Source: Gemmatimonadaceae bacterium (GTDB taxonomy: Bacteria > Gemmatimonadota > Gemmatimonadetes > Gemmatimonadales > Gemmatimonadaceae). From it: a stretch of 42,205 bases of DNA. Positions within the stretch are counted from its first letter, which is position 1. Each line of letters starts with the position of its first letter. Shown one piece after another: positions 1,519-42,205 of the stretch. The translations under genes and the position numbers were made by a program. The stretch is taken from the NCBI GenBank assembly GCA_024710705.1, contig JANJUF010000058.1, positions 1 to 42,205 of the forward strand. The letters are read 5' to 3'. The notes below the pieces were generated by a model. That model made no database searches. It saw only the letters and a program-made list of their open reading frames with translations, and was not told where the DNA came from.

Positions 1519-1632
1519 TTGCCACAGAGGCACGGAGGACCTCCTCATTGATGTTGTAGCTGCTCATGCATGGGCCCGGCGGATGCTGGGCCCTTTGCTG
1601 TCTGGCTTTGTGCCTCTGTGCCTCTGTGGCAA
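1519..1632. repeat. Intergenic palindrome with 8-bp tandem arms
   Basis: The left arm at 1519-1533 (TTGCCACAGAGGCAC) is the exact reverse complement of 1618-1632. Pairing continues inward to about 1538/1613 with one G-T pair. The right arm contains GTGCCTCT twice in tandem (1610-1617 and 1618-1625). The interior holds a second, smaller hairpin with GGGCCC at 1572-1577 and 1588-1593. It fills most of the gap between the bacilliredoxin and the sigma-factor gene. I see no U-tract, so a simple intrinsic terminator is not clearly indicated. The architecture matches the GACGGAA elements described later, but the unit differs. Confidence 0.8.
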
Positions 1633-27773: not shown

Positions 27774-28526
<753 letters not shown>

Positions 28527-28528
28527 AT

Positions 28529-28624
28529 GACGGAAGACGGAAGACGGAAGGAACTGCAGTAGACACTACGAGCGGGACGAAGGGGAGCGCAGTTGCAGGT
28601 ACCTTGCGGCTTCCGTCTTCCGTC
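28529..28624. repeat. GACGGAA palindromic element, copy 1 (between sufB and sufC)
   Basis: The left arm is three tandem heptamers GACGGAA (28529-28549). The right arm at 28610-28624 reads CTTCCGTCTTCCGTC, the inverse complement of two units plus one base, so the stem can form in two registers. An inner pairing AACTGC (28552-28557) with GCAGTT (28589-28594) is possible. The element begins 2 bases upstream of the sufC ATG and ends 11 bases after the sufB stop, so it is transcribed inside the operon. Confidence 0.88.
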
Positions 28625-28635
28625 CCGCGGTCACA

Positions 28636-30069
28636 TCACCCAACTGAACCTTCAAGCGAAATCCCAAGCAGCTGCTGGGCTTCGAGCGCGAACTCCATCG
28701 GCAGCTCCTTGAACACTTCCTTGCAGAACCCCGCGACGATCAACGAGATGGCGTGCTCGGCGTTCAAGCCGCGCGCCTTGCAATAGAAGATCTGGTCTTC
28801 ACCGATCTTCGACGTCGAGGCTTCGTGCTCGAGGGTCGCCGTGTTGTTGGCGATCTCGATGTAGGGGAAGGTGTGCGCGCCGCAGGCGTTGCCGATGAGC
28901 ATCGAGTCGCACTGCGTGTAGTTACGCGCGCCCTCGGCCTTCGGCAGCACCTTCACCTGGCCGCGATAGGAGTTCTGCCCCTTCCCGGCGCTGATGCCCT
29001 TGGAGATGATCGTGGACTTCGTGTTGCGCCCGATGTGGATCATCTTCGTGCCGGTGTCGGCCTGCTGCATCCCGTTCACCACCGCCACCGAGTAGAACTC
29101 GCCGACGCTGTTGTCGCCCTGCAGGATGACGCTGGGATACTTCCAGGTGATCGCCGAGCCCGTCTCCACCTGCGTCCACGAGATCTTGGCGTCGGTCATC
29201 GCCTTGCCGCGCTTCGTGACGAAGTTGTAGATGCCGCCCACGCCGTTCTTGTCGCCGGCGTACCAGTTCTGAACGGTGGAGTACTTCACGCTGCTGCGGT
29301 CGAGCGCGATGATCTCCACCACCGCCGCGTGCAGCTGGTTCTCGTCGCGCTTGGGTGCGGTGCAGCCCTCGAGATAGCTCACCGACGCGCCTTCATCGGC
29401 GACGATCAGCGTGCGCTCGAACTGGCCGGTGTTGGCGGCGTTGATGCGGAAGTAGGTGCTGAGCTCGAGCGGGCACTTCACGCCCTTCGGCACATAGACG
29501 AACGAGCCGTCGGAAAACACCGCCGAGTTGAGCGCGGCGAAGAAGTTGTCGGAGTAGGGCACCACCGAGCCGAGGTACTTCTGCACCAGCTCGGGGTGGT
29601 GCTGCACGGCCTCGCCGAAGGAGCAGAAAATCACCCCGACCTTCTCGAGTTCCGTCTTCATCGTCGTGCCGACCGAGACGGAGTCGAAGATGGCGTCCAC
29701 GGCGATGCCGTTGAGGCGCTTCTGCTCGGTGAGCGAGATGCCAAGCTTCTCGTAGGTCTTGAGCAGCTCGGGATCCACGTCGGCGAGCGACTGCAGCGGC
29801 TTCACCGACTTGGGCGCGGAGTAGTAGGTCTGCGCCTGGTAGTCGATGGGCGGATAGCTGACGTTCGACCAGTGCGGCTCGGTCATGGACTGCCAGCGCC
29901 GGAAGGCCTTGAGGCGCCAGTCGAGCAGCCACTGCGGTTCGTTCTTCTTGGCCGAGATCAGGCGTACGGTGTCTTCGGTGAGACCGACCGGAATGGTGTC
30001 CGATTCAACGTCGGTCACGAACCCGTACGCGTACTCCTTATTGACCAGTGCTTCGATCGAGGACGACAT
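28636..30069 (-). CDS. sufB: SufB, Fe-S scaffold subunit
   Basis: This 477-residue core scaffold is where the Fe-S cluster is built with SufC and SufD. Conserved blocks are seen throughout: [75 protein letters not shown] and [22 protein letters not shown] near the C-terminus. It is the first gene of the operon sufB-sufC-sufD-sufU-Rieske-sufS. No Shine-Dalgarno is visible. The mRNA just before the ATG reads CUCCUCC, the opposite of a ribosome-binding site. The N-terminus matches the family, so the start is probably right. Confidence 0.96.
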
Positions 30070-30110
30070 GATTTGGAGGAGCTTGGGACGGCCTGCGGGT
30101 AATGCCTATG

Positions 30111-30139
30111 AAAATAGTCGGGTATTGCGCGACAGGCAA
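30111..30139 (-). promoter_or_regulatory. Putative sigma-70-type promoter of the suf operon
   Basis: Reading the minus strand, TTGCCT (30139-30134) and TATTTT (30116-30111) are spaced by exactly 17 bases, a good match to -35/-10 elements. Transcription would start near 30104, giving a leader of about 35 bases before the sufB ATG at 30069. I see no clear Rrf2/IscR- or Fur-type palindrome, but this is a by-eye judgement. Confidence 0.45.
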
Positions 30140-30151
30140 CGCGTTGCGGAT

Positions 30152-30246
30152 GTGAGACGGAAGACGGAAGCTGCAAGGTAACGGCGCTGCGGGACCTGTT
30201 CGCCCCCGAATCGCCTCTCCCTTGTCGCTTCCGTCTTCCGTCTCAC
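30152..30246. repeat. GACGGAA palindromic element, copy 2 (between suf operon and GGDEF gene)
   Basis: Bases 30152-30170 (GTGAGACGGAAGACGGAAG) are the exact reverse complement of 30228-30246, a perfect 19-bp stem. Each arm holds two heptamer units. The stop codon of the GGDEF gene (30243-30245) lies within the right arm. The element could end transcription from the GGDEF gene and also insulates the suf promoter, which lies 12 bases away. The loop has weaker pairing (CAAGG with CCTTG). Confidence 0.9.
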
Positions 30247-31421
30247 GTCTCCAAAAAGACCTCCACTCGGTCGCGCCCCAGCGCCTTGGCCCTGTACATC
30301 GCCTTGTCGGCGTGATCGATGGCCGTTTCGATGTCCATGCCTTCCAGGAGGGGGGCGATCCCGCCGGAGAGGGTGACGGTCACGGCCGGCCCCCCGGCGA
30401 CCTCGATGGGGGTGGCGGAGAGGGCTTTTCGGACGCGCTCGAGGGCCACCAGGGCCTGCGCCGGGGAGGTGTAGGGCAGGAGCACCACGAACTCCTCGCC
30501 GCCGAAGCGGCCCGTGATCTGCTCCTCGCGGAAGTTGTCCACAATCCGCGTCGCCGCGGCCTTCAACACCACGTCGCCGACCGCGTGGCCGTAGGTGTCG
30601 TTCACTTCCTTGAAGTGGTCGAGGTCGAGGACGGCGACGGCTATCGGCTGCTCACGGCGTCGCGAACCGGCGATCATCGGCTCAGCGTCGTCGAAGAAGG
30701 CGCGCCGGTTCTTGAGGCCGGTGAGCTCGTCCACCATCGCCAGATCCTGCATCCGCGAGAAGGCCCGCTCGAGCTGGGCCTGGCCCTCACCTGCCTGCGC
30801 GAGGGCTTGGTTGCGCTCCACCAGCACCCGCACGTTGTCCACGAACTGCCGCCAGCTCGTCTTGGTGAAGAGGATCGCCACGAGGATGAAGACGCCGAGC
30901 CCGGCCGGAAGGATCGGATGTTCCGGGTCGCCGAGGCGCACGGTCTGGACGAACAACGGCACGGTGAGCGGGATGAAGAAGAGCAGGCTCGCCACCGGGG
31001 ACGAGCTGAAGAAGGTCACCGATCCACCGGTAAGCCCAGCGACGAGCAACATCAGCAGCGCCCGTTCGTCGGCCCAGGCGACGGGGAAGAGCCCCCACAC
31101 GGCCATGCCCCAGAGGCTCCCGGCGATGACGGAGAAGATCATCGCCCGGCGTTCGTTTCCGGGGCTCACATCGTCCGGTCGCGGCAGGTGCCGGAGACGG
31201 CGCCAACTCAGGAATGCGGGCGTCCAGAGGATCACCATGGAAGCCACGAACAACACCAGGAGCGTGGGCTCCACGCGTTCCCAGAACACCACCGCGAGGA
31301 AGCTCGCGATCAGCGGATTGCCGACGAAGACGGTGGGGAGCTGCTGGACGCGGTTGACGGCCTGCGAGACGCGAATCGCCTGTCGGAGGGCCGGGGAGTC
31401 GCCGGGGATTCGAAACTGCAT
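30243..31421 (-). CDS. Membrane-bound diguanylate cyclase (GGDEF)
   Basis: This 392-residue protein has about six N-terminal hydrophobic helices (residues 25-195), a short coiled-coil-like linker, and a C-terminal GGDEF domain. VDELTGLKNRRAFFDD opens the domain, and the active site is RFGGEEFVVLLP. LSGGIA and ADKAMYRAKALGRDRV close it, so it should make cyclic-di-GMP from two GTP. The inhibitory I-site (RxxD, five residues before GGEEF) reads REEQ, so product inhibition is probably lost or altered. The membrane part resembles a sensor module without known ligand. The gene converges on the repeat next to sufB. Confidence 0.92.
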   Translation of the reverse strand: MQFRIPGDSPALRQAIRVSQAVNRVQQLPTVFVGNPLIASFLAVVFWERVEPTLLVLFVASMVILWTPAFLSWRRLRHLPRPDDVSPGNERRAMIFSVIAGSLWGMAVWGLFPVAWADERALLMLLVAGLTGGSVTFFSSSPVASLLFFIPLTVPLFVQTVRLGDPEHPILPAGLGVFILVAILFTKTSWRQFVDNVRVLVERNQALAQAGEGQAQLERAFSRMQDLAMVDELTGLKNRRAFFDDAEPMIAGSRRREQPIAVAVLDLDHFKEVNDTYGHAVGDVVLKAAATRIVDNFREEQITGRFGGEEFVVLLPYTSPAQALVALERVRKALSATPIEVAGGPAVTVTLSGGIAPLLEGMDIETAIDHADKAMYRAKALGRDRVEVFLET

Positions 31422-31519
31422 CCGCCAAGAGTATTGCGCGGAAAGCTGGACAACCAGACTCTATGGGTGCCCTAGGCGCCTCCCGTGCCCTGTGGCGCCC
31501 CCTTCCCCCGGAGGCTGGA

Positions 31520-32074
31520 ATGGAGTTCGTGCTTGAGCTGTGGAAGCCAATCCTGTTCAGTGGTCTCGCCGTCTTCGCGCTCTCGGCGGTGTCCTGGACG
31601 CTGTTGCCGTTCCACAACAAGGAGTGGAACAAGCTGTCCAACGAGGACGCGGTGGCGGCAGCCCTTCGCGCCAGCAGTCCCGCCCCAGGCCTCTACTCCC
31701 TGCCGCACGCGGCCGACGCCAAGGCGATGGGAACGCCCGAGATGCAGGCCAAGTTGGCCGGCGGACCCGTGGCCTACCTCACCGTGGCCCCCAACGGGAA
31801 TCCGGCCATGGGCCCGATGATGGCCAAGAGCGTGATCTACAACATCATCGTGTCGCTCTTCGTGGCCTACGTCGCATCGCTGACGTTGGCGCGGGACGCC
31901 GAGTACCTGGCGGTGTTCCGGGTGACGGGCACGGTGGCCTTCATGGCCTATGCGTTCGGCACGGTTCCGGACTCGATCTGGTTCGCGAAGCCGTGGAAGA
32001 GCTACAGGCTGCACGCCGCCGACGCGCTGGTGTACGGACTCGTGGTGGGCGGATTCTTTGGCTGGCTGTACTAG
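31520..32074 (+). CDS. Small membrane protein of unknown function (184 aa)
   Basis: This protein has one N-terminal membrane helix (about 8-28) and then a stretch of about 75 residues outside the membrane. That stretch includes PFHNKEWNKLSNEDAVAAALR and GLYSLPHAADAKA. Three C-terminal helices follow (IIVSLFVAYVASLTLA, VTGTVAFMAYAFGTV, DALVYGLVVGGFFGWLY). I have seen this general pattern as a conserved hypothetical in several phyla but know no function. The start at 31520 has a strong Shine-Dalgarno (GGAGG at 31510-31514). It is divergent from the GGDEF gene with 98 bases between them. Confidence 0.8.
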   Translation: MEFVLELWKPILFSGLAVFALSAVSWTLLPFHNKEWNKLSNEDAVAAALRASSPAPGLYSLPHAADAKAMGTPEMQAKLAGGPVAYLTVAPNGNPAMGPMMAKSVIYNIIVSLFVAYVASLTLARDAEYLAVFRVTGTVAFMAYAFGTVPDSIWFAKPWKSYRLHAADALVYGLVVGGFFGWLY

Positions 32075-32078
32075 GAGC

Positions 32079-32162
32079 TGAGACGGAAGACGGAAGACGG
32101 AAGGAAGGGCGATGCGGAGGCTTACAGCTACCGCATCGCCCTTCTTTCCGTCTTCCGTCTCA
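32079..32162. repeat. GACGGAA palindromic element, copy 3 (between convergent genes)
   Basis: The left arm holds three GACGGAA units (32082-32102), and the right arm at 32146-32162 (TTCCGTCTTCCGTCTCA) pairs with 32079-32095. Inside is a perfect 13-bp hairpin, AAGGGCGATGCGG at 32105-32117 with its complement at 32131-32143. The element fills the gap between the membrane-protein stop (32074) and the convergent propeller stop (32180), where a bidirectional terminator would be expected. Confidence 0.9.
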
Positions 32163-32179
32163 CGTCTTAAGTCTCTAAC

Positions 32180-33184
32180 TCACATTGCGGTTCGCGGCGT
32201 GGAAACCGCGGCTCTCCCGATCGTTCCCTGATCCGTGCCGTACCACAGCAGGCCGGTGCGCGGATCGAAGTACATGTGGCGAATCGTGTTGCTGGCCTCG
32301 CGCCCGATGAGCGTGGTGCTGAAGAACCGCTGCTGGGCCGGGTCATAGCCGTGGAGGATCGCGCCACGCGGGCCTGATTCGGTCACCCACACACGCCCCT
32401 TGTCGTCGCGGCCCATGCCGTACGGGAGCGACGCCGGGCCGCCGGGCAGGGGAATCTCGGTGACGCTCCCCGAGTTCGGGTCGAGCCGACCGAGGAAGCC
32501 GCGTGTGTAGTCCGTGTACCAGACCACATCATCGGGCGTGATGGCGATGCGGCGGCTGCGGGCGCGCTCGTGGGGGAGATCGTAGGTCGTCACCGCCATC
32601 GTCGCCGGATCCACCTTCGCGATCTTGTTGGTGCCGAAGAGATTCACGAAGGGAATGCCGCGCGAGTTGAGCTCGATGCCGTACGGGCGCGTGCGCTCGC
32701 CGGTCTTCACGAGCCGGATGGTGCCGCTACGCACGTCGAGGTGGCCGATGGCGTTCGAGTTCTGCGCCGTGAACCAGATGTTCCCCTGCGCGTCGAAGGT
32801 CAGGGTGTGCGGGTCGCGCACCGACGGGTCGGGCATCGGGTACCGCGTGATCTGGCGCGTGCGCGGGTCCAGCTTCCCGATCATCCCGTTGCGGTTGCCA
32901 GCGTAGTACACGTTGCCGTCGCGGTCGATGATGAGGTTGTGCGGGTTGGTGCCGCTGTCAATCTCGAAGCGGGTGAAGGTCCCGCCGCGGGGGTCGAGCC
33001 GCCCGATGTAGTTGCCGGCCTGGCCGACGAAGAAGACGGAACCGTCGGGGGCCACATATGGATCGCGTGGGCGACCGCCGAAGGGAACTTCCCAGTCGGC
33101 AGAGGGCACGCGCTCGCCGGTCTGGGCGGATGAGGCTGGCGCGGCCATGGCCAGCGCGGCGAATGCTAGTACGAGACGACGCAT
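32180..33184 (-). CDS. Secreted beta-propeller protein (virginiamycin B lyase-like)
   Basis: This 334-residue protein has a signal peptide (MRRLVLAFAALAMAAPASSAQ) followed by about seven NHL/Vgb-type blades. Each has phrases such as DPYVAPDGSVFFVGQAGNYIGRLDP, PHNLIIDRDGNVYYAG, PHTLTFDAQGNIWFTAQNSNAIGHLD and GRVWVTESGPRG. Vgb lyase opens streptogramin B rings with a catalytic His. Many homologues like this one are only propeller relatives, so resistance should not be assumed. It lies downstream of the Gly-rich repeat protein on the same strand, with 104 bases between that include a hairpin. Confidence 0.8.
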   Translation of the reverse strand: MRRLVLAFAALAMAAPASSAQTGERVPSADWEVPFGGRPRDPYVAPDGSVFFVGQAGNYIGRLDPRGGTFTRFEIDSGTNPHNLIIDRDGNVYYAGNRNGMIGKLDPRTRQITRYPMPDPSVRDPHTLTFDAQGNIWFTAQNSNAIGHLDVRSGTIRLVKTGERTRPYGIELNSRGIPFVNLFGTNKIAKVDPATMAVTTYDLPHERARSRRIAITPDDVVWYTDYTRGFLGRLDPNSGSVTEIPLPGGPASLPYGMGRDDKGRVWVTESGPRGAILHGYDPAQQRFFSTTLIGREASNTIRHMYFDPRTGLLWYGTDQGTIGRAAVSTPRTAM

Positions 33185-33231
33185 ACGGTCCTCACGTGGA
33201 AAGGGACGAGATATCCCCTCTAACGCCAGAA

Positions 33232-33256
33232 CCCGCCCGAGTGTTGCGGGGGCGGG
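33232..33256 (-). terminator. GC-rich hairpin after the repeat-protein gene
   Basis: CCCGCCC (33232-33238) and GGGCGGG (33250-33256) form a 7-bp GC stem with an 11-base loop, 33 bases past the stop of the Gly-rich repeat gene. On the minus strand the following bases are TTCTGGCGTT, not a real U-tract, so this is at best a weak terminator or mRNA-stability hairpin. Confidence 0.35.
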
Positions 33257-33288
33257 CTCCGGGGCTCGTTGCCGGCGCGTCGAGACGT

Positions 33289-34506
33289 CTACCTGCTGTT
33301 CCCGAAGTTGATCAGTGGCAGCACGCGGAACGGGGCCGGGTTGTCGCGCACGATGTTGACGGCCCCGAGCTGCACTCCGCGCAACCGTTCGGCGTAGTTC
33401 ACCAGCCCGATGCTGATGCCGTTCTGATACCCACGGATGGCGTTCACCGCCGAGAGGCTGGCTCCGGTCATCCGGCCGCCCACTTCCGTGCGGAACAGGG
33501 CAGGCGCAATCACCACGCCCTGCGTACTCTCTGCCCCGACGATGAGAGCCGATGCCAGGCCCTCGATGCGGGGGGCGCCCACCCCGAGCCCTGCAACACT
33601 GAGCCAGCGCAACGTGCGGCCGGAGCCGAGTCCGACGCCGGCTACCTGGATCCCGGTCATCGAACCGCCCGATCCCGCGCCGACGCCCGCGACGGTGATT
33701 CCGCTGATGGATCCCCCAGCACCGACTCCAACGCCGCCCACGCGGATGCCGCTCATGCTCCCGCCGGCGCCGACGCCGATCCCGCCAACCTGCACTCCGC
33801 GCACGGAGCCACCGGCCGCCGCGCCGATGCCACCGACGAGCGCTCCGCGGACGTCGCCGCCCGCTCCGGCCCCCAGTCCACCCACCATCAGGCCGCGGAC
33901 ACTCCCGCCGGCCCCGACGCCCAGACCACCTGCCATGACGCCTCGCGCGTTCCCGCCTGCGCCCGCGCCGAGGCCGCCGACCACGATGCCCCTCAGGCTT
34001 CCCCCCGATGCCGCGCCGAGGCCGCCGATCATCACGCCGCGCAGGTCTCCCCCCGCGCCGACGCCGAGCCCGCCGGCCGCAATTCCGCGCACGGCGCCGC
34101 CGGCGCCGACCCCGAGCCCGCCCACGAGCAGTCCGCGGGCACTCCCGCCAGCGCCCACTCCTGCTCCACCGATGCCGATGCCGCGGAACTCCGACTCCGC
34201 GCCCACGCCGAGGATCCCGACGCCGACGCCGACGATGTCCTCGGCCACGGTGATCGGGAGGCCGATCGCCGCGCCCTCCACCCGGCCGCCGATATAGCCG
34301 TCGTAGGGGGTCCAGACCGTGATGTTGGCGCCACGCACGAGCTCAAGCTCGCGGTCGCGGAAGTTGAGACGGATGCCGTCCACCCGCGGGTGATGCCCGA
34401 TTGAGATGATCCGGCGAACGGGAGCGCCGCCCTGGGCGTCGAGCGCCGGCGCGGCGACCGAGAGCAGGAGGGCGGCGACGGGAAGGGCGCGTGAGAATCG
34501 CGACAT
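33289..34506 (-). CDS. Exported protein with thirteen 16-residue glycine-rich repeats
   Basis: This 405-residue protein has a signal peptide (residues 1-25, ending ALDAQ) and a beta-rich N-terminal region (29-107). From residue 108 to 315 there are thirteen tandem repeats of exactly 16 residues, consensus R-G-hydrophobic-x-V-G-G-L-G-V-G-A-G-G-S-x; the R/S/T before G falls at 108, 124, 140 and so on to 300 with no indel. The tail (NGISIGLVNYAERLRGVQLGAVNI) resembles LA_2272-type surface repeats. A beta-solenoid or outer-surface role is likely but inferred. ATG 34506 gives the signal peptide. It follows the FAD-subunit gene after 101 bases. Confidence 0.85.
   Translation of the reverse strand: MSRFSRALPVAALLLSVAAPALDAQGGAPVRRIISIGHHPRVDGIRLNFRDRELELVRGANITVWTPYDGYIGGRVEGAAIGLPITVAEDIVGVGVGILGVGAESEFRGIGIGGAGVGAGGSARGLLVGGLGVGAGGAVRGIAAGGLGVGAGGDLRGVMIGGLGAASGGSLRGIVVGGLGAGAGGNARGVMAGGLGVGAGGSVRGLMVGGLGAGAGGDVRGALVGGIGAAAGGSVRGVQVGGIGVGAGGSMSGIRVGGVGVGAGGSISGITVAGVGAGSGGSMTGIQVAGVGLGSGRTLRWLSVAGLGVGAPRIEGLASALIVGAESTQGVVIAPALFRTEVGGRMTGASLSAVNAIRGYQNGISIGLVNYAERLRGVQLGAVNIVRDNPAPFRVLPLINFGNSR
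33562..34185 (-). repeat. Thirteen 48-bp coding repeats in the Gly-rich protein
   Basis: This is the DNA behind the 16-residue repeats: thirteen in-frame 48-bp units, with protein periodicity exact across all of them. The units differ at many third positions and at set amino-acid positions (for example RGLLVGG, RGIAAGG, RGVMIGG), so this is not a recent identical VNTR. Units 10-13 drift (SGIRVGG, SGITVAG, TGIQVAG, RWLSVAG) toward the C-terminal domain. Confidence 0.85.
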
Positions 34507-34607
34507 CGGAGATCCGGTGGAGGTGGCTCTGGTTCGGCCTACGAGGCGAGCGGACGGTCCGTTTCGGAGATGGGACAGCCGCTGGCCCCGAAGGGTTTGA
34601 GCCCCTC

Positions 34608-35564
34608 CTAGAGCGCTTGGATCGTCCGCTTCAGCGCGGCCTGCGCGAGCTGGACCTTGTAGCCGTTCGCGGCCAAGGGCTCCGCATCGTACATCGCCCG
34701 CTCCACCAGGGCGTCGATGCTGTCCTCGTCGAGGCCGCCGACGCTGACGTCCTCCTCCACCGAATCGGAGACCCGCCACGGGGCGAGCGCGACGCCGCCG
34801 AGCACGAGACGCACGCTGCCATCCGCGCGGCGCACACCGGCGCAGGAGACGAGGGCGAAGTCCCAGGCCGCGCGCTGCATCACCTTCTCCCAGTGCTGGG
34901 CGCCTCCGGCCGCGGCCGCTGGGAGGTGCACGGCGACAATGAGTTCTCCCGCCGCCAGTTGCGCTTCCTTGTGCGGGTCGTTGGCAGCGCCCGCGTAGAG
35001 CTCGGAGATGCTGACGCGTCGCGGGCCCGCTGCGGCGCTGGCGATCTCGACCTGCGCCTCGAGCGCCTCGAGGGCCACGGCGGGGTCCGACGGATGCACC
35101 GCGCGACAGGTGCCGGCCGCCACGATGCCGTGGTAGCGATGCTCCCCGTCCACGGCCGCGCACTGCGCGCCCCCGCGCTTGAAGCAGCCGACGTCGCGGC
35201 GGAAGTACCAACAGTGATGGCGCTGGGCGAGGTTGCCGGCGATGGTGCCGGCATTGCGCAGGGCGGGCGTGCCGACGCTGGCGCAGGCGGCGGCGAGCAC
35301 GGGAAAGTGCGCGCGGATCGCCGCGTGCGCCGCCAGCTCGGCGACGGTCACCGCGGCGCCGATCGTGCAGGATCCATCGGCGTGGCGCGTGATGTCGCGT
35401 GCGCCGGCGATGCCGCGTGCATCCACGACGCGGACGGGCGTGAGGATGCCCTCTTCGTGCAGCGGCACCAGGTCGGTGCCGCCGCCCACGGGAATGCTCC
35501 CCGGCTCGGCGAGTGCGGCGAGGGCCTTGTCGCGCGTGGTGGCGTGCAGGTAGGTGAAGCTCAC
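34608..35564 (-). CDS. FAD subunit of molybdenum hydroxylase with extra [4Fe-4S] cluster (PaoB/HcrB-like)
   Basis: This 318-residue medium subunit of a xanthine-oxidase-family enzyme shows the FAD motifs PVGGGTDL (25-32) and GTIAGNLAQ (106-114). Between them and PSDPAVAL lies an insert with C118, C127, C135 and C153. This matches the four-Cys pattern that binds a [4Fe-4S] cluster in E. coli PaoB (YagS) and 4-hydroxybenzoyl-CoA reductase. Its partners, the 2Fe-2S and Mo subunits, are at 38.5-41.3 kb on the same strand, so the enzyme's genes are split by about 3 kb. GTG 35564 is the start. It lies 10 bases after the ChaN-like gene. Confidence 0.9.
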   Translation of the reverse strand: MSFTYLHATTRDKALAALAEPGSIPVGGGTDLVPLHEEGILTPVRVVDARGIAGARDITRHADGSCTIGAAVTVAELAAHAAIRAHFPVLAAACASVGTPALRNAGTIAGNLAQRHHCWYFRRDVGCFKRGGAQCAAVDGEHRYHGIVAAGTCRAVHPSDPAVALEALEAQVEIASAAAGPRRVSISELYAGAANDPHKEAQLAAGELIVAVHLPAAAAGGAQHWEKVMQRAAWDFALVSCAGVRRADGSVRLVLGGVALAPWRVSDSVEEDVSVGGLDEDSIDALVERAMYDAEPLAANGYKVQLAQAALKRTIQAL

Positions 35565-35574
35565 GGGCCGAACA

Positions 35575-36582
35575 TTAGGGCTGGGGCGCGGTGGGCGCAG
35601 GGGCCAGCGTGAAGACGATGTAGTCACCGACGCGGCGACGGTCGCGCCCATCGGCGCGGTCGAGGTCCGCGACCGGCACGAAGCTGACGACGACGAGACG
35701 GGCGCGAGGCATCCGCCGCCGCACCCGCTCCACGGTGCCGAGGCGATAGTCGGAGTGGAAGGCGCCGTTGGCGTGCACGACCAGCGTGTTGTGCGCCGTC
35801 AGGGCACGGGCGATGGACTCGCCCATCGCCTCGTCCTTCACGCACTGCGCCTCGTAGGTGCGCCAGACCATCGTTTCGACCTGCTCGGGACTGAGTTGCA
35901 TGCCGTGGCCTGACATATCGCCCATCACGTCCTGAAAGCGTCGGAAGTACTCGTCCCGTGGGCACGCGTGCTCGGCGGCGACGAAGGGCCGGTCGCTCTC
36001 GGGTACCGAGTCGAGCGCGGCGAGTCCGCGACGGGCCACCACCGAGGCGAGACGCCGCGGCACGTTGCCGGCCACGACGGGCCAGCCGCGCGCCTTGGCG
36101 AACTCGAGCATCGGGCGATAGTCGGTCGGATAGTTGGGCCAGGGGCGGCTCGCGGTGAGGAAGCCGGCCTCGTCGAGTGAATCGGCGAGATAGGCGTCCA
36201 GCTGCGGCTGCACGTCGCGCTCGAACATCTCGAGGGCGAGCACGGCGCGGTCGTCACGGCGGCGCGCCACGCCCTCGAGGATTCCCGCCTGGAGGACGTG
36301 CGTGCCGGGGTCGTTGTGGAACTCGCCAAGGAAGGCGACGTCGGCGCGGGCGATGGCGCCGATCATTGTCTCGAGGTCGGTGAAGCGCTTGCGTTTGGTA
36401 TCGTAGACGCGGTGTGGCGTGTAGGTCGGTACGGCCACGCGCAGGAGTACCGGGGCGGCTGGCGCGGTCAGCGGCGGCGGGGCGACCGGAGGGCCCGTGA
36501 GCGAGTCTTGGGCACGGGCCGGTGCTGGGCTCACAGCAAGCAGGCTGAGCGCTGTTGCAATTCTAAAAGAAGAATATGACAT
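35575..36582 (-). CDS. ChaN-like exported protein
   Basis: This 335-residue protein has a signal peptide (residues 1-24, ending APARAQ) and a ChaN domain. IARADVAFLGEFHNDPGTH has the GE-H motif, and RAVLALEMFERDVQPQLDAYL, PVVAGNVPRRLASVVARRGL and LVVHANGAFHSDYRLGTVERV follow in order. ChaN proteins bind heme or are proposed iron-regulated lipoproteins; the fold resembles EreA/TIKI hydrolases with a His-Glu site. This one has a plain signal peptide rather than a lipobox. It is the first gene of a minus-strand run with the FAD subunit, repeat protein and propeller. Confidence 0.85.
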   Translation of the reverse strand: MSYSSFRIATALSLLAVSPAPARAQDSLTGPPVAPPPLTAPAAPVLLRVAVPTYTPHRVYDTKRKRFTDLETMIGAIARADVAFLGEFHNDPGTHVLQAGILEGVARRRDDRAVLALEMFERDVQPQLDAYLADSLDEAGFLTASRPWPNYPTDYRPMLEFAKARGWPVVAGNVPRRLASVVARRGLAALDSVPESDRPFVAAEHACPRDEYFRRFQDVMGDMSGHGMQLSPEQVETMVWRTYEAQCVKDEAMGESIARALTAHNTLVVHANGAFHSDYRLGTVERVRRRMPRARLVVVSFVPVADLDRADGRDRRRVGDYIVFTLAPAPTAPQP

Positions 36583-36676
36583 TAAACCTACTTAGGGTTG
36601 TGCAGTGGAGGTCTCAGTGCATGATGCCCGAGAAACACCGAGACGCGGTTAAGAAGATTTAATCAAACAATTATTC

Positions 36677-37555
36677 TTGTCATCATCACTGGCCGGACCA
36701 ACGCTGCGTCTGCTTGAAGAGGCCGCCGACGAGCTTGGCCGACTCGATTCGCTCGCCCAACTCGCGCCGCCTGCCTTCGCACACGCCGCTCGAGGAGCAC
36801 TGCTCGCCCAGCTGGAAGCTAGCCCCGACGCGCTGGTGGCGCTGACCGCGGCGGGGGTGGATCCGGTGCACGCGGCAGCGCTCGCGCCCTCGCTCAACGC
36901 CTGGGCGGCGGTCGTGGACGAAGAGGTGCGGCGTGTGCGAAGCGGCGTCCCGCTCGCAGCGAAGCGATTCTCTGGGGTGGGCGACATCCACGCACTCGAG
37001 GAGCTGGAACAGGCACTGCGCTCGAGTGGCGAGCTGCGCTCGGTGCTGCTGCGAGGGGTGGGCGCGGCGGCGGCGGTGGGCAGCGGTCCGCTCGCCGAGC
37101 TCGTGCCCGCCCTGCTGCTCTGCGCCACCGGACACTTCGACCGGCCGTGGATCCTTCCGTTTGCTGACGTTGAGCCGGCCTCGCGCGACGAGGGGCTCGT
37201 GGCGTGGCGAGAGGGCGACCTGAGCCCGTTGCGGGACGCCTTGCTGAGTGCCTGCTCCACCACTGCGCGTTCGCGGCGTCTCGCGATCCGCCGGCTGCTG
37301 CAAACGCTCCTGCTCGAGGACGAGTCACTCGGCACGCTTGGGCGCGCCGCCATCACCGCCCGCCGCGCGCTCGCCGTGCTGCGCGACTCGCTCGCCATCT
37401 CGATGCCCTCATTGGCCGAACGGTTGGAATGCTCGCGTCCGGCCGCCGGCGACGCGCTCGAGCGACTCGTCCACCTGAAGCTTGCGCGGGAAATCACCGG
37501 GCGCGATCGCGACCGCGTGTTCGTCCACGCGGCCACCTGGGACTCCGTGACCTGA
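36677..37555 (+). CDS. Winged-helix protein of unknown function with Fic-like C-terminus
   Basis: This 292-residue mostly helical protein has a C-terminal winged helix (ISMPSLAERLECSRPAAGDALERLVHLKLAREITGRDRDRVFVH) very like the end of many Fic-family proteins. The middle has HFDRPWILPFADVEPA and WREGDLSPLRDALL, reminiscent of Fic and DUF1612 proteins, but the HPFxxGNGR AMPylation motif is absent. The start is doubtful: TTG 36677 is the first usable codon after an in-frame stop at 36650, with only weak AAGAAG upstream. It is divergent from the ChaN-like gene over an AT-richer 94-base gap, and precedes the M23 peptidase. Confidence 0.6.
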   Translation: MSSSLAGPTLRLLEEAADELGRLDSLAQLAPPAFAHAARGALLAQLEASPDALVALTAAGVDPVHAAALAPSLNAWAAVVDEEVRRVRSGVPLAAKRFSGVGDIHALEELEQALRSSGELRSVLLRGVGAAAAVGSGPLAELVPALLLCATGHFDRPWILPFADVEPASRDEGLVAWREGDLSPLRDALLSACSTTARSRRLAIRRLLQTLLLEDESLGTLGRAAITARRALAVLRDSLAISMPSLAERLECSRPAAGDALERLVHLKLAREITGRDRDRVFVHAATWDSVT

Positions 37556-37646
37556 GACGCAGCGCGCGTCGGCAACGCGCGTGGGCAGCTCCGGCGAAGC
37601 GTCCGCGCCGCGTGACTTCGGATGCGCGGCACTCGTTTCCTCAGTA

Positions 37647-38201
37647 ATGCGCTCCCTTGCCCTCCTCGGTGCCGTGCTCGTGCTCGGCAGCGCCTGCGCC
37701 GGTGGTCCACCCGCCAGCGAAATTCCGCGTCCGATGACGGAGCGGGAGTACCTCCGCTCGCGGAAGATGATGGTCCCGGTGCACGGCGTGCGCCCGTCCC
37801 AACTGCAGGACACATACAACGCGAGGCGCAGCGGCGGCCGCACCCACAACGCGCTCGATGTGATGGTGCGCCGGGGCACCCCGGTGGTCTCGGCCGACGA
37901 TGGCGTGGTGCGCCGCATCTCCACCAACCCCCTCGGCGGGCGTACCGTGTACGTGGTGGACCACGCGCAGCGGTTTGTCCACTACTATGCACATCTGGAC
38001 GAGTACGCCCGTGGTCTGCGAGAGGGGCAAGCGGTCCGGCGGGGCGATCTCATCGGGACGGTGGGCACCACCGGCAACGCCCCGCGCAACGCCCCGCACC
38101 TGCACTATCAACTGCTCCGGTATGCCGACTCCCGAATGTGGTGGACCGGCGAGCCGGTGAACCCCCTCCCGTATCTCACGAGACGAGGCAAAAGGCGATG
38201 A
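37647..38201 (+). CDS. M23 (LytM-type) peptidase domain protein, exported
   Basis: This 184-residue protein has an N-terminal export signal ending VLGSACAGG, a near-lipobox with Cys17. The M23 domain carries zinc ligands H67 and D71 in RTHNALDVMV and H153 in PHLHYQLL, with HYYAHLDEY between. It should cut peptidoglycan peptide bridges in the periplasm or, if lipidated, act from the outer membrane. All key residues are present, so it is probably active rather than an EnvC/NlpD-like activator. It overlaps the YhbY gene by 4 bases (ATGA). ATG 37647 begins the signal peptide. Confidence 0.9.
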   Translation: MRSLALLGAVLVLGSACAGGPPASEIPRPMTEREYLRSRKMMVPVHGVRPSQLQDTYNARRSGGRTHNALDVMVRRGTPVVSADDGVVRRISTNPLGGRTVYVVDHAQRFVHYYAHLDEYARGLREGQAVRRGDLIGTVGTTGNAPRNAPHLHYQLLRYADSRMWWTGEPVNPLPYLTRRGKRR

Positions 38202-38509
38202 CGATGACGGGAAAGGAGCGGGCGGCCCTCCGCTCGGAGTGCAATCGGCTGAAGCCCACCGTGCACATCGGGCAGGAAGGCATCACCCCGACGCTGATTG
38301 ACGCCCTCAACGACGCGCTGCGCACACGCGAACTGGTGAAGGTCCAGCTCAACAAGTCGGTGGACGTCACAGCCAGGGAGGCCGCCGCCGACTTGGCCAA
38401 GCGGGTGCGCGCCGAGGTCATCCAAGTCATCGGCAAGACGGCGTCGCTCTACCGCAAGAACCCGCAGCTGAAGCGGAAGCCGGGGGCGATGCCTCCGTGG
38501 CGGGTCTAG
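38198..38509 (+). CDS. yhbY: YhbY/CRS1-YhbY (CRM) domain RNA-binding protein
   Basis: This 103-residue single CRM domain matches the family length. The order is LRSECNRLKPTVHIGQEGITPTLI, then ALRTRELVKVQLNKS, then AEVIQVIGKTASLYRKNP. The GxxG-type loop is partly changed (HIGQEG), but the C-terminal QVIGKTASLYR motif is standard. YhbY binds pre-50S ribosomal particles. It starts at ATG 38198 inside the M23 stop, so the two are coupled. It ends 4 bases before the convergent molybdenum-subunit stop. Confidence 0.92.
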   Translation: MTMTGKERAALRSECNRLKPTVHIGQEGITPTLIDALNDALRTRELVKVQLNKSVDVTAREAAADLAKRVRAEVIQVIGKTASLYRKNPQLKRKPGAMPPWRV

Positions 38510-38513
38510 GGCG

Positions 38514-40841
38514 TCAGCGCGCGAGCGCGGCCAGCACGCGCCAGGGCGTCATTGGCAGTTCGAGCACGTCCACGCCAAGCGCGTCCGCGACGGCGCCGGC
38601 AATCGCCGGCGCCGTCGGCACGATGGCCGGCTCGGCGATGCCGCGGGCCCCGACATGATTCGCCTTGGTATCGGCGCCATCGAGGAAGTGGCCGTCAATG
38701 CTCGGGATGTCCGCCATGGTCGGGATCTTGTAATCGTGCAGTCCGACATTGAGCGGCAGGCCCATGCGCGTGTCGAGCACGCGCTCCTCGAAGAGCGCAA
38801 AGCCCAGCCCCTGGATGATCCCGCCCTCGAGCTGCGATTCGGCCAACGTGGGATTCACGATCCGCCCGGCATCGTGCACGGCGACGATGCGCACCACGCG
38901 CACGACGCCGGTGGCAGTGTCCACCTCAACCTCGGCGAACTGCGCGCCGGTGGTGACGATGCCGGCGTCCTGCGGGTTCGGCCCACGCGACCCGTGCCCC
39001 TGGATCATCACGTTGCCGAGCTTGGCCGTGATCTCGCCGAACGACATCCCGCGTTCGCTACCGCGCACGGCGACGCGTCCCTCGAAGACCTCGAGTTGAT
39101 CGCTAGGTGCGCCGAGCAGCCCTGAGGCGGCCTCGACCAACGCACGCCGCGCATCCACGGCGGCCATGCGCACCGCCGGGGTGAGTGAGGCGACGGTCAT
39201 CGACCCCCAGGAGTTACCGGCGTAGGGCGTGGCTCCGGTGTCGCCGATGATGGCGCGGACTTGGTCGAGCCGGTGCCCGAGCGCTTCGGCGGCCACCTGC
39301 GCGAGGATGGTGCGCGTGCCGGTGCCGAGATCCTGCGAGCCGGCGAGCACATCAGCCGAGCCATCGGTGTTGATGCGCACGGTGGCGTAGCTGGGCGGAC
39401 CGCCGCCGGTAGACCAGATCTGCGCCGCCACGCCGACGCCGCGACGCAGGTGGGGCTTGCCGGGCACGACGCGTGGATCGGGGGCTGTGTGCGCGTCCTT
39501 CGAGCGCCGGCGAATGCGGTGCCAATCGCGCCACCCGAAGCGTTCCGCTCCCACGTCGTAGCACTCGGCGAGGCGGTTACCGGTGTAGGGGCGGCTCTTC
39601 TTCTGGTCGTGCGTGGCGGTGTTGCGGCGGCGGAGCTCGAGGGGATCGAGCCCCAATTCCTTGGCCAGCGCGTTCATCGCTGCCTCGAGCCCCACCGCGC
39701 CCTCGGCGTGTCCCGGCGCACGGAAGGCCGCCATGGCGGCGGTGTTCACGAAGGCGAAGGTCTCGTGCGTGCGCACGTTGGGGCAGGCGTAGAGCTCGTG
39801 GTAGATCTCGCCGGGTCCACCTTCCCAGCCGCCGATGCCGAGCTGGATCTCGCCGACCATCTCGATGGCGGTGAGCGTGCCGTCCTTCATCGCGCCGATG
39901 CGGATGCGCTGCACGCTCGACGGGCGATTGCCGGTGTCCACCTGCTCGCCGGCGCGATCCACGTAGCAGGCGACGGGGCGTTCGAGGCGTCTCGCGAAGA
40001 GGGCGGCGATGTAGGTGTGGGCGGCGGCGTAGTTCTTGGCGCCGAACCCACCGCCCATCGCTTCGCAGATCACGCGAACGTTGGTCAGGGGGACGTCCAG
40101 CGCCTTGGCGAGATTGTCGCGTACGCGGAAGATGCCCTGCGTGCTTTCCCAGACGGTGAGCCGGTCGCCGTCCCACTCGGCGACGGCGGCGTGCGGCTCG
40201 AGCGCGGAGTGCAGCGCGCAGGGCGTGCGCACCTCGCGCGTGATGGTGACGTCGGCGGCGGCGAAGCCGGCGATGACGTCGCCGCGCTCGGTGGTGCGGG
40301 GTTCCTTGAAGAGCAGGTTGTTGGAAAGTCCGGGGCGCACCGGCTGTGCGTTCGCCGCGGTGGCCTGCGCCACGGTGACGGCGTGCCGACCCTTCTCGAA
40401 CTCCACGGTGATGAGCCGTGCCGCGCGATCGGCGATTGCCTGGTTCTCCGCGCAAACGGCGGCCAGGGGCTGGCCGTGGTAGGTGATCTCGGCGTTGAAG
40501 AGCCGCGTGCGCGCGGGGACGTCGTCCACGAGCAGGATGTCGAGTACGCCGGGTATCGCGCGCGCGGCCTCTACGTTGATGCGCGTGACCTTGCCACGTG
40601 CGATCCGGGAGCGGACGATGGCGGCGTATGCCTGGTGCGGCCGACGGATGTCGGTGGTATAGCCCGGCCGGCCGGTGGCCTTGAGCGCCGCGTCCACACG
40701 AAGGGCCCGTGCCCCCACGTGCGTGAGCGCCGCGTCGGCGCCCCAAGGCTCGAGATCGAAGGCCGGCATCTCGACGACGCGCTGCTCCGTGCGGCCCTCG
40801 ACCTCGACGGTAGTGGTGACGAAGCGCGCTGGCTTGCTCAT
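38514..40841 (-). CDS. Molybdopterin-binding subunit of xanthine dehydrogenase/aldehyde oxidoreductase family
   Basis: This 775-residue large subunit holds the Mo cofactor. Seen in order are TGRPGYTTDIRRPHQAYAAIVRS (a/b hammerhead domain), CEAMGGGFGAKNYAAAH, TAAMAAFRAPGHAEGAVGLEAAMNALA, GSQDLGTGTRTILAQVAAE, and the catalytic Glu E737 in GARGIAEPAIVPTA. The family hydroxylates aldehydes, purines or aromatic heterocycles with water as oxygen source. The nearby PaoB-like FAD subunit suggests an aldehyde oxidoreductase-type enzyme, but the substrate is not fixed by sequence. It overlaps the 2Fe-2S subunit gene by 4 bases. Confidence 0.93.
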   Translation of the reverse strand: MSKPARFVTTTVEVEGRTEQRVVEMPAFDLEPWGADAALTHVGARALRVDAALKATGRPGYTTDIRRPHQAYAAIVRSRIARGKVTRINVEAARAIPGVLDILLVDDVPARTRLFNAEITYHGQPLAAVCAENQAIADRAARLITVEFEKGRHAVTVAQATAANAQPVRPGLSNNLLFKEPRTTERGDVIAGFAAADVTITREVRTPCALHSALEPHAAVAEWDGDRLTVWESTQGIFRVRDNLAKALDVPLTNVRVICEAMGGGFGAKNYAAAHTYIAALFARRLERPVACYVDRAGEQVDTGNRPSSVQRIRIGAMKDGTLTAIEMVGEIQLGIGGWEGGPGEIYHELYACPNVRTHETFAFVNTAAMAAFRAPGHAEGAVGLEAAMNALAKELGLDPLELRRRNTATHDQKKSRPYTGNRLAECYDVGAERFGWRDWHRIRRRSKDAHTAPDPRVVPGKPHLRRGVGVAAQIWSTGGGPPSYATVRINTDGSADVLAGSQDLGTGTRTILAQVAAEALGHRLDQVRAIIGDTGATPYAGNSWGSMTVASLTPAVRMAAVDARRALVEAASGLLGAPSDQLEVFEGRVAVRGSERGMSFGEITAKLGNVMIQGHGSRGPNPQDAGIVTTGAQFAEVEVDTATGVVRVVRIVAVHDAGRIVNPTLAESQLEGGIIQGLGFALFEERVLDTRMGLPLNVGLHDYKIPTMADIPSIDGHFLDGADTKANHVGARGIAEPAIVPTAPAIAGAVADALGVDVLELPMTPWRVLAALAR

Positions 40842-41305
40842 GCGCCGGTCTCGCGCAGCATGGCGGCGGCGCGTCGAACCGCGCGCAGGATCTTGGGATA
40901 GGTGCCGCAGCGACAGAGATTCCCGCTCATGGCGGCGACGATCTCGTCGTCGCTGGGGTCGTCATTGGCGGCGAGCAACGCGGCGGCGGCCATCAGTTGC
41001 CCCGGGGTGCAGAACCCGCACTGCGCGGCGTCCTCGAGGGCGAAGGCCTGCTGGAGGGGATGCGGCTCGGCCGCGCTCCCGAGGCCCTCGATGGTGCGGA
41101 CGTCGTGCCCATCGCAACCCTGGGCCAGGGTGAGGCAGGAATAGACCGAGACTCCGTCCAGCAATACGGTGCAGGCGCCGCAGGAGCCCCGATCGCAGAC
41201 GCGTTTGGTGCCGGTGAGGGCGAGCTCATCGCGCAGGAGGTCAAGGAGGGTGGCGTGCCCCTCCGGATCAGCGGCCACCGGCCGGCCATTCAAGGTGATC
41301 TGCAC
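40838..41305 (-). CDS. [2Fe-2S] subunit of the molybdenum hydroxylase
   Basis: This 155-residue small subunit has two Fe-S domains: the plant-ferredoxin type with C37, C42, C45 and C57, and the helical C-terminal type with C96, C99, C131 and C133 (QCGFCTPGQ and LCRCGTYPKI). It passes electrons from the Mo centre to FAD. It starts at GTG 41305 without any Tat signal, so the complex is probably cytoplasmic, unlike E. coli PaoABC whose PaoA is Tat-exported. It overlaps the large-subunit gene by 4 bases. Confidence 0.94.
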   Translation of the reverse strand: MQITLNGRPVAADPEGHATLLDLLRDELALTGTKRVCDRGSCGACTVLLDGVSVYSCLTLAQGCDGHDVRTIEGLGSAAEPHPLQQAFALEDAAQCGFCTPGQLMAAAALLAANDDPSDDEIVAAMSGNLCRCGTYPKILRAVRRAAAMLRETGA

Positions 41306-41436
41306 GTCAGGGATTTAGAGGACGGGGCACGAGCTGTCCAGCGAGCGCGTTATGTGGCGAGGCGGCCTGTTGGAGCGTCCCAGAGCTGTCTAGATTGCGT
41401 CGTGTACCGCCACAGCACTCCCCACTGAGGACCTCC

Positions 41437-41700
41437 ATGCCGTATGTGATCACTGAAGCCTGCATCAACACCAAGGACAAGTCCTGCGTGGACGTGTGCC
41501 CGGTGGATTGCATTTATGAAGGGCCGGACATGCTGTACATCCAGCCTGACGAGTGCATTGATTGCGGCGCCTGCGAGCCGGAGTGCCCAGTGACGGCGAT
41601 CTTCCCGGAGGAGGACGTGCCGGCGAACTTGAAGCAGTACGTGCAGATCAACCGGGATGCTTTCAATAAGGATCCGAAGCCGGGGCGGCCGACTCGGTAA
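41437..41700 (+). CDS. fdxA: 7Fe ferredoxin ([3Fe-4S][4Fe-4S]), FdxA-like
   Basis: This 87-residue ferredoxin has C9, C17, C21, C25, C40, C43, C46 and C50. By comparison with Azotobacter FdI, C9, C17 and C50 should hold the 3Fe cluster, and C21, C40, C43 and C46 the 4Fe cluster, with C25 free. The segments SCVDVCPVDCIYEGPDML and CIDCGACEPECPVTAI are standard. ATG 41437 follows GAGG at 41427-41430. Electron-transfer partners are unknown, but the molybdenum hydroxylase and SUF genes are nearby. It is followed by a perfect long palindrome. Confidence 0.94.
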   Translation: MPYVITEACINTKDKSCVDVCPVDCIYEGPDMLYIQPDECIDCGACEPECPVTAIFPEEDVPANLKQYVQINRDAFNKDPKPGRPTR

Positions 41701-41703
41701 GGA

Positions 41704-41815
41704 CTTGGGACGGAAGACGGAAGACGGAAGGTGCCAGCAACGACAACGGCGATGCGGAACTCCGCATCGCCGTTGATCTTGCCCATTCCTTCCGTCTTCC
41801 GTCTTCCGTCCCAAG
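41704..41815. repeat. GACGGAA palindromic element, copy 4 (perfect 28-bp stem)
   Basis: Bases 41704-41731 are the exact reverse complement of 41788-41815, a perfect 28-bp outer stem holding three GACGGAA heptamers per arm (left units begin at 41709). Inside is a second perfect 15-bp stem (41744-41758 with 41761-41775) around a 2-base loop, sharing the GGCGATGCGG core with copy 3. It lies between the convergent ferredoxin and methyltransferase stops, fitting a bidirectional terminator position. Confidence 0.93.
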
Positions 41816-41817
41816 CG

Positions 41818-42205
41818 CTAAAAGAATCTCTGCTTCGCCACGAACAGCCCAATAATCGCGGCAAATTGCAGAAACGTGCTAATCTCTGACTTCCACGCTT
41901 CCGCCCAGAAAAACTCTCCTGCACTACCACCTTCCGGTGGGCGCGGGAACCAGCGCGGCGTGCGGGCCTTGTAGTCCAGGTAGGTCTGGCCGAAGATGCT
42001 TTCGAGCACGCCCTCCTCGTAGCGCACGATGTAGTAGTACTCGATGGCGAAGATCAGCGTCGCCACGGGGAGGAACCAGAGCACGCCGCTGATGGTGATG
42101 ATGCCCATCCACAGCAGGAAGTTGCCGTTGTAGAGCGGGTTGCGGCTCCAGGCGAAGGGGCCGTGCGAGACGAGCTTCTGCACGTTTCGCGAGCGGCGGC
42201 GCGTC
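41818..42205 (-). CDS. Isoprenylcysteine carboxyl methyltransferase-like membrane protein, 5' end outside window
   Basis: About 128 C-terminal residues are visible, open to base 42205. The ICMT/PEMT signature is clear: QKLVSHGPFAWSRNPLYNGN, followed by membrane helices (LWMGIITISGVLWFLPVATLIFAIEYY) and YIVRYEEGVLESIFGQTYLDYKARTPRWFP, where the E and the RTPR-W-P segments match the SAM-binding tail. The end adds a further hydrophobic helix (FLQFAAIIGLFVAKQ). The upstream residues (TRRRSRN) suggest the frame continues beyond the window. Such enzymes methylate small molecules, lipids or protein carboxyls; the substrate is unknown. Confidence 0.85.
   Translation of the reverse strand, partial: TRRRSRNVQKLVSHGPFAWSRNPLYNGNFLLWMGIITISGVLWFLPVATLIFAIEYYYIVRYEEGVLESIFGQTYLDYKARTPRWFPRPPEGGSAGEFFWAEAWKSEISTFLQFAAIIGLFVAKQRFF

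Follow-up and report, generated by a model that had tools for sequence, protein, structure and literature searches.

Tandem-heptamer palindromes at gene borders of a Gemmatimonadaceae bacterium, and the different words that sister species carry at the same borders

The locus and its four palindromes

The window, that is, the whole 42,205-nucleotide stretch of DNA analyzed here, comes from a Gemmatimonadaceae genome (G000 below; 3.0 Mb, 137 contigs, 87.6% complete). It contains suf genes, a GGDEF gene and a ferredoxin gene, and at the gene borders of this region lie four palindromes whose arms are tandem copies of GACGGAA on one side and of TTCCGTC on the other (Table 1). A preliminary description of this DNA had placed such palindromes here, one inside an operon, one at the end of a gene and two between convergent stops. 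Their positions are borne out by the exact arrays and by the inverted-repeat list, in which the five longest entries for the window (I1 to I5) are the four elements, and their contexts agree with our gene calls. The inner-hairpin core said to be common to two of the elements is also real: GGCGATGCGG is present in the inner hairpin of elements 3 and 4 alike.

With up to two mismatches allowed, the tandem 14-mer matches the window 15 times against 0.30 expected, and none of 100 shuffled versions contained as many. Between positions 28400 and 42205 no Rfam family matched above its gathering score, and a search of the same part for consensus promoters returned none.

Table 1. Palindromic elements of the window and the genes used as anchors
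Feature	Coordinates	Strand	Exact (GACGGAA)n arrays	Description
Element 1	28529..28624	.	28529-28549 / 28611-28624	Palindrome (GACGGAA)3 ... (TTCCGTC)2; takes up the greater part of the space between sufB and sufC in the suf operon
sufB	28636..30069	-		Anchor of the syntenic comparison
Element 2	30156..30242	.	30156-30169 / 30229-30242	Palindrome (GACGGAA)2 ... (TTCCGTC)2; directly at the stop codon of the GGDEF gene, upstream of sufB
Element 3	32082..32159	.	32082-32102 / 32146-32159	(GACGGAA)3 ... (TTCCGTC)2 enclosing inner hairpin GGGCGATGCGG; between convergent stops
Ferredoxin gene	41437..41700	+		Best match FdxA_Actino, slightly under the curated cut-off; anchor at element 4
Element 4	41709..41810	.	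41709-41729 / 41790-41810	(GACGGAA)3 ... (TTCCGTC)3 enclosing inner hairpin ACGGCGATGCGG; ferredoxin stop on one side, a convergent gene on the other

Copies, pairing and arm structure across the genome

In the 3.0-Mb genome we counted 218 exact copies of the tandem 14-mer GACGGAAGACGGAA and not one of its reversed control. Sites were sampled from 66 stretches (288 kb) taken from lists of array starts, together with the window. This sample holds 122 arrays of at least two units, which we grouped into 90 sites; by unit counts the arrays cover 204 of the 218 genomic 14-mers, so a few arrays are missing. Array length ranges from two to seven units, with 58 arrays of two units, 50 of three and 14 of four or more. 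According to our gene calls, which come from our own codon-usage script and not from a curated annotation, 115 of the 122 arrays lie outside genes; of the seven exceptional arrays, two fall at an ORF end and five, from four sites, within an ORF body. Few further copies, or copies within coding sequence, would have counted against the dispersed family supposed in the preliminary description; these counts do not refute it.

Strict inverted pairs are found at 31 of the 90 sites, with GACGGAA first in all of them. We also looked up to 170 bp from each of the 59 strict singles for a degenerate opposite arm: 19 have one on the correct side and none on the wrong side, against a rate of 1.5% in shuffled sequence. 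Paired sites therefore total 50 of 90, all of them GACGGAA-first, and a partner was undetected at the other 40. The loops mostly differ among copies; some contain a GC-rich hairpin of their own, two cores recur, and inner 7-mers of the CGATGCGG core type are found in 15 of the 122 arms. Beyond the heptamers, flank profiles show just two widely shared features, a degenerate unit on the outer side (AGAC..GA) and a G or GG on the inner side. The earlier statement that loops differ while arms are kept is correct inside this genome and is reversed between species, where site and pairing stay and the arm sequence is replaced.

Placement and orientation relative to genes

Arm orientation was scored for 111 arrays, a set that excludes the seven arrays in called genes and four not flanked by called genes on both sides. 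Relative to the nearest gene, 85 of these arms point outward and 26 inward; among the 78 arms no more than 15 bp from an edge, 73 point outward and 5 inward. The nearest edge of the outward arms is a stop in 51 and a start in 34.

A preference for gene ends is evident in the paired elements. Between co-directional genes we considered 30 paired elements, having dropped any whose overlap with a called gene exceeds 25 bp; a stop codon lies within 25 bp in 29 of them and a start codon within 25 bp in 14. The 50 paired sites include 15 between convergent and 2 between divergent genes; these stretches contain 153 gaps of 40 bp or longer in total, 18 of them convergent and 28 divergent. Elements also flank RNA genes: they lie among tRNA genes and next to tRNA 3' ends, and at a distance of 13 bp from the tmRNA 3' end. 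The unpaired sites between co-directional genes (n = 27) include 18 that, by our own count, read TTCCGTC in the sense direction, and a start codon lies within 15 bp in 15 of these 18. The unpaired arms (40 of 90 sites), such start-proximal singles included, are explained by none of the readings discussed below, the terminator among them.

Orthologous borders in related genomes

The same borders were compared among 17 genomes of the genus, G000 counted. sufB was matched in 16 of the 17 (15 at 90% identity or more, one of these 15 being partial) and the ferredoxin gene in all 17, and the DNA of the syntenic block is 74-76% identical to the window in the aligned parts (G138, G139, G149, G146). 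At these borders the sister species hold arms made of other words, plain hairpins or short gaps. In the sufB-sufC gap the arms are spelled with GACGGAT in G138, with an 8-base word (CACAGAGG) in G139, with a GAGTTGG-type word in G149 and with words of the GGTGAGG/GGTGTGA type in G146 and G134; the gap is 37-42 bp long and armless in G145, G147, G137 and G142, and in G143 and G140 it folds no better than shuffled sequence. In the gap orthologous to element 3, stems of other sequence fold in five of the six mapped relatives, with fold z values of -10.1 (G138), -12.3 (G139), -10.1 (G149), -9.3 (G134) and -4.4 (G146); the sixth, G148, has a gap of 4 bp.

At the ferredoxin site the arms of G000, G135/G149, G138 and G139 enclose other inner hairpins, and in G143, G141 and, more weakly, G148, arm-like words surround a hairpin similar, by eye, to that of the armless relatives. 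A plain armless hairpin, often of the GGGGCGCCGGAT type, is found here in 8 of the 17 genomes (G134, G136, G137, G140, G142, G145, G146, G147) and a 4-bp gap in G144, so the arms are not essential. Long stems at the same borders in several species use GACGGAT, GAGTTGG, GGCTGAA and GGTGTGA.

The seven-base period was examined in gaps of 30 bp or longer that lie between the same pair of orthologues, 27 of them orthologous to the four elements and 46 others. A period-7 score of at least 8 was reached by 15 of the 27 and by none of the 46 (Fisher p 1e-8, indicative only, since the entries come from related species and are phylogenetically non-independent), and a stem score of at least 10 by 19 of the 27 and 1 of the 46; 12 of the element-orthologous gaps are without period 7. 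A scan of 191 gaps of the syntenic block, the window included, identified 23 periodic gaps against 0.1 per run in shuffles; 14 of them have period 7 and any other period occurs at most once. Without the window's own gaps, period 7 accounts for 11 of 19 periodic gaps. Bulk intergenic DNA shows a modest effect: of 15 lags, lag 7 comes out on top in only 4 of 13 species.

Word dialects across species

Word counts differ sharply between the genomes of the genus. Tandem pairs of GACGGAA number 218 in G000, 25 in G138, 4 in G135, 3 in G149 and 1 in G139, and are absent from the other 12. Tandem GACGGAT is found 163 times in G138 and 15 times in G135, all on two contigs, with none in the other 15; GAGTTGGRAGTTGG occurs 15 times in G149, 5 times in G135 and nowhere in the rest of the 17. 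Tandem GGCTGAA is present 1 to 14 times in seven genus genomes, small ones included, and absent from ten, G000 among them. The dominant word is not exclusive, as several words coexist in single genomes. At the family level, at least one GACGGAA 14-mer is found in 22 of 179 genomes, some with counts no higher than the reversed control, and G124, of another genus, has 47.

The other words are arranged in the same way. In G138, where 23 sites from 20 stretches and the syntenic block were sampled from the 163 known matches, 19 of the 23 GACGGAT sites are paired and none has a wrong-side partner. GGCTGAA is paired at 15 of 25 sites (30 loci), also with no wrong-side partner, and 4 of these 15 lie between divergent genes. 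In G149, 12 of 16 sites are paired, and the looser threshold applied to this genome also gave three wrong-side partners. Stop anchoring of paired elements between co-directional genes is seen in 10 of 11 cases in G138, 5 of 7 in G149 and 4 of 4 for GGCTGAA.

A search of a public genome collection, which may omit the window's own and very near genomes, for inverted pairs with a spacer of 10-40 bases returned two stretches, one from a Litorilinea MAG and one from a Saprospiraceae MAG. By eye, both are intergenic palindromes, each with its own spelling.

Comparison with known repeat systems

The STRR repeats of heterocystous cyanobacteria are dispersed tandem heptamers, and REP/REPIN elements, with their RAYT transposase, are many-copy intergenic palindromes. 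Unlike the latter, the elements described here have no fixed palindrome core, and no Y1 transposase is found in the 17 genus genomes. STRR repeats have been used as a fingerprint, according to the available excerpt of PMC5088731.

The closest likeness is to the heptameric intergenic repeats GGGAATC of Xanthomonas and GGGGA(C/T)T of Nostoc/Anabaena (Rehm et al. 2015, PMC4692102). As given in the available excerpts of that paper, the Xanthomonas repeat is 89-93% intergenic, forms convergent inverted pairs (70 in one genome, 75 in another), reads outward at both gene ends, is under-represented in gaps between divergent genes and has 83% of its positions common to two Xanthomonas; inverted pairs are few in Nostoc. 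The same excerpts emphasize quadruplexes and leave the function of the heptamer repeats open. The GACGGAA elements share with these repeats a dispersed intergenic tandem unit of seven bases, an outward purine- or G-rich strand near the ORF edge, and inverted pairs. They differ in that the word has no GGG, arrays are mostly of two or three units with no preference for four, pairs often enclose inner hairpins, and words vary between species at the same borders.

Two other systems are similar in part. The DNA uptake sequence (DUS) of Neisseriaceae is a species-specific short word that forms inverted pairs at terminators and is common inside genes too (PMC3630211, in excerpt), whereas here the arrays are tandem and coding DNA is not enriched. 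In the Nostoc tRNA-Leu intron, a single hairpin has arms of degenerate heptamers that pair with each other and vary in copy number (PMC3488679, in excerpt); that is a single intron locus, and the present elements are at dispersed gene borders. Judging from the excerpted texts, the heptameric SARP binding sites (PMC8780764) and a catalogue of stem-loop families (PMC2267715) concern different things. The exact 19-mer had no match in the literature searched, and the matches for gemmatimonad intergenic palindromes were unrelated by title. A phage origin was also considered and rejected: the three viral contigs with the 22-mer carry a direct array, with no inverted partner array within the stretch examined.

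Interpretation

From the sequence comparisons, the elements are probably stem-loops that lie at the borders of transcripts, most often at the 3' end, for which we infer a function at the RNA level: they would act in both directions, as terminators or as 3'-end or intercistronic stabilizers, and their heptad arms would be prone to slippage. A bidirectional RNA stem-loop fits the data because of the position at transcript ends, RNA genes included, the pairing maintained despite replaced sequence, and the symmetric purine-first polarity. With the purine-rich word pointing outward from the gene, a transcript arriving from either side would meet the purine arm and then the pyrimidine arm. The outer stems, being tandem heptamers, may arise and change through slippage, and the arms would be retained because both still pair. 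In G000 some 90 sites carry one word, and in other species of the genus the word at a given border differs with site and pairing unchanged; some process would have to make one word common across a genome.

The bidirectional terminators considered in the preliminary description are partly upheld. In favor are the position, at stops, in convergent gaps and at tRNA and tmRNA 3' ends, and the folding kept in relatives under changed sequence, and by position and folding the elements are stable hairpins at the 3' end of transcription units, as an intrinsic terminator is. Against this, a simple consensus T-tract scan of positions 28400-42205, restricted to loops of 3-8, gave 3 terminators against 5.7 in shuffles and none at the four elements; T-runs do follow the inner stem at some other elements, for example, at site 17. 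The location of element 1 within an operon and the pairs between divergent genes (2 of 50 in G000, 4 of 15 for GGCTGAA) also speak against termination. Given the T-tract scan, 3'-end stabilization and factor-assisted termination are as plausible as a canonical intrinsic terminator. It is conceivable, and we suggest it only tentatively, that palindromes dispersed over the gene borders undergo concerted evolution of their arms, with many borders in species of the genus rewritten in a new heptamer that keeps site, pairing and outward purine polarity. This would need a genome-wide copying or recognition process, and no description of a process of that kind was found in the literature searched.

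The features just described also bear on other origins of the arms. That period 7 leads, that unit number varies from two to seven, and that 8 of 17 genomes have a plain armless hairpin at the ferredoxin site would all be expected of neutral heptad microsatellites, in which polymerase slippage and hairpin-templated copying would enlarge existing palindromic terminators and the arms themselves would be functionless; the idea that slippage suits heptamers is cited in the available part of PMC4692102. Such a process alone leaves one word at about 90 unrelated sites unexplained, as well as the outward orientation and the stop anchoring in 29 of 30 elements, and we regard it as unlikely. In the same view a change of 7 bp would harm a gene and the repeats would survive between genes, in line with the 115 of 122 arrays that lie outside called genes. 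A common word could instead be read by a putative trans-acting factor, such as an uptake receptor or a nucleoid or termination protein, the species dialect drifting with the factor. The sharp species differences in the counts of GACGGAT and GACGGAA tandem pairs are in line with this, and the Neisseriaceae DUS offers a precedent for inverted pairs at terminators and for dialects (PMC3630211, in excerpt). However, several words stand side by side in one genome, and 297 kb of coding DNA near the elements hold 34 single GACGGAA, whereas its 140 permutations average 39.2 and 70 of them are as numerous. This lack of enrichment led us to reject a DNA uptake sequence, and a factor of any of these kinds is quite improbable.

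Spread by a transposase, with different families of miniature mobile or REP-type elements settling the same borders in each species, would account for dispersed copies at gene borders and for the CGATGCGG-core inner 7-mers in 15 of 122 arms. The REP-like label of the preliminary description agrees with the intergenic placement at gene ends. Against it stands the absence of the REP transposase family PF01797 from all 17 genus genomes, the window's own being 87.6% complete, in a search whose E. coli control was positive. The proposal of a non-autonomous mobile element is not supported: little sequence is common past the heptamers, one degenerate outer unit and the inner G or GG, the loops mostly differ, several species are occupied at the same borders, and at the ferredoxin site three relatives have arms around a hairpin that by eye is like that of armless relatives. 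A MITE with common sequence and defined ends was likewise rejected, information content being near background outside the heptamers and the adjoining unit. The little shared sequence and the lack of a REP transposase argue against mobile or REP elements, which we consider very unlikely. G-quadruplexes were proposed for the Xanthomonas repeats, whose period and placement rule match those of the present elements (PMC4692102, available excerpts), and the tandem GAGTTGG of G149 includes GGG. In GACGGAA, GACGGAT and GGCTGAA no G tract is longer than GG, and four or more units are present in just 14 of the 122 GACGGAA arrays; with no GGG and mostly two or three units, a quadruplex is extremely unlikely for the GACGGAA arms.

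Significance

Heptamer repeats with the same placement are already known from Xanthomonas and Nostoc, as the available excerpts of PMC4692102 describe; the new part is the replacement of words at fixed borders within one genus. The same placement with words that are mostly not quadruplex-forming, and that differ between sister species, suggests that pairing and position matter and not a particular sequence. For the transcript-border stem-loops that we favor, it is apparently the fold, more than the letters that spell it, that counts, and one border written in several spellings is a natural experiment. If one word is indeed copied genome-wide and replaced as species diverge, this would be an unusual case of concerted evolution in bacteria, and if the arms do evolve in concert, word dialects may be general to this class of repeats, those of Xanthomonas and Nostoc included.

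Genomic surroundings of the GACGGAA arrays

A GACGGAA palindrome lies at a distance of 13 bp from the 3' end of the tmRNA gene at one of the array loci (see table). Right of position 1994 of another locus, L093, a four-unit array gives way to a different tandem text, made of GGTTCTTGATTCCT repeats. Some arrays at the loci L103, L132 and L118 lie about 150 bp or less from contig ends, and the repeats may therefore have broken the assembly.

Features located in the window and around the heptamer arrays
Feature	Location	Description
Inverted repeat	window 1519-1632	arms TTGCCACAGAGGCACGGAGG / CCTCTGTGCCTCTGTGGCAA; unlike the GACGGAA elements
tmRNA gene	L111:2020-2378	tag ANNNFALAA
Palindrome, Litorilinea MAG	L153:3712-3766	GACGGAA-containing arms; between genes, by eye
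Palindrome, Saprospiraceae MAG	L154:1454-1523	GACGGAA-containing arms; between genes, by eye

The inverted repeat at window 1519-1632 is resembled by a CACAGAGG word, from which the sufB-sufC palindrome of G139, a genome of the same genus, is built and which also forms part of one convergent gap in the congeneric G138. In the Litorilinea and Saprospiraceae palindromes, the words adjacent to GACGGAA are particular to each.

Occurrence on individual contigs

In G135, also of this genus, all 15 matches to two tandem GACGGAT units are confined to two contigs, C172 and C243, and all four GACGGAA matches fall on C172. These may be foreign contigs or the product of transfer from a species like G138, in which GACGGAT is the dominant word.

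The window's own bin contains two similar loci on separate contigs (L101 and L150), assigned by reading to a putative ychF, whose aligned pieces are 74-86% identical and which both carry a heptamer array immediately upstream of the start codon. Possibly the bin mixes two species that share the word, the smaller of these contigs belonging to the second.
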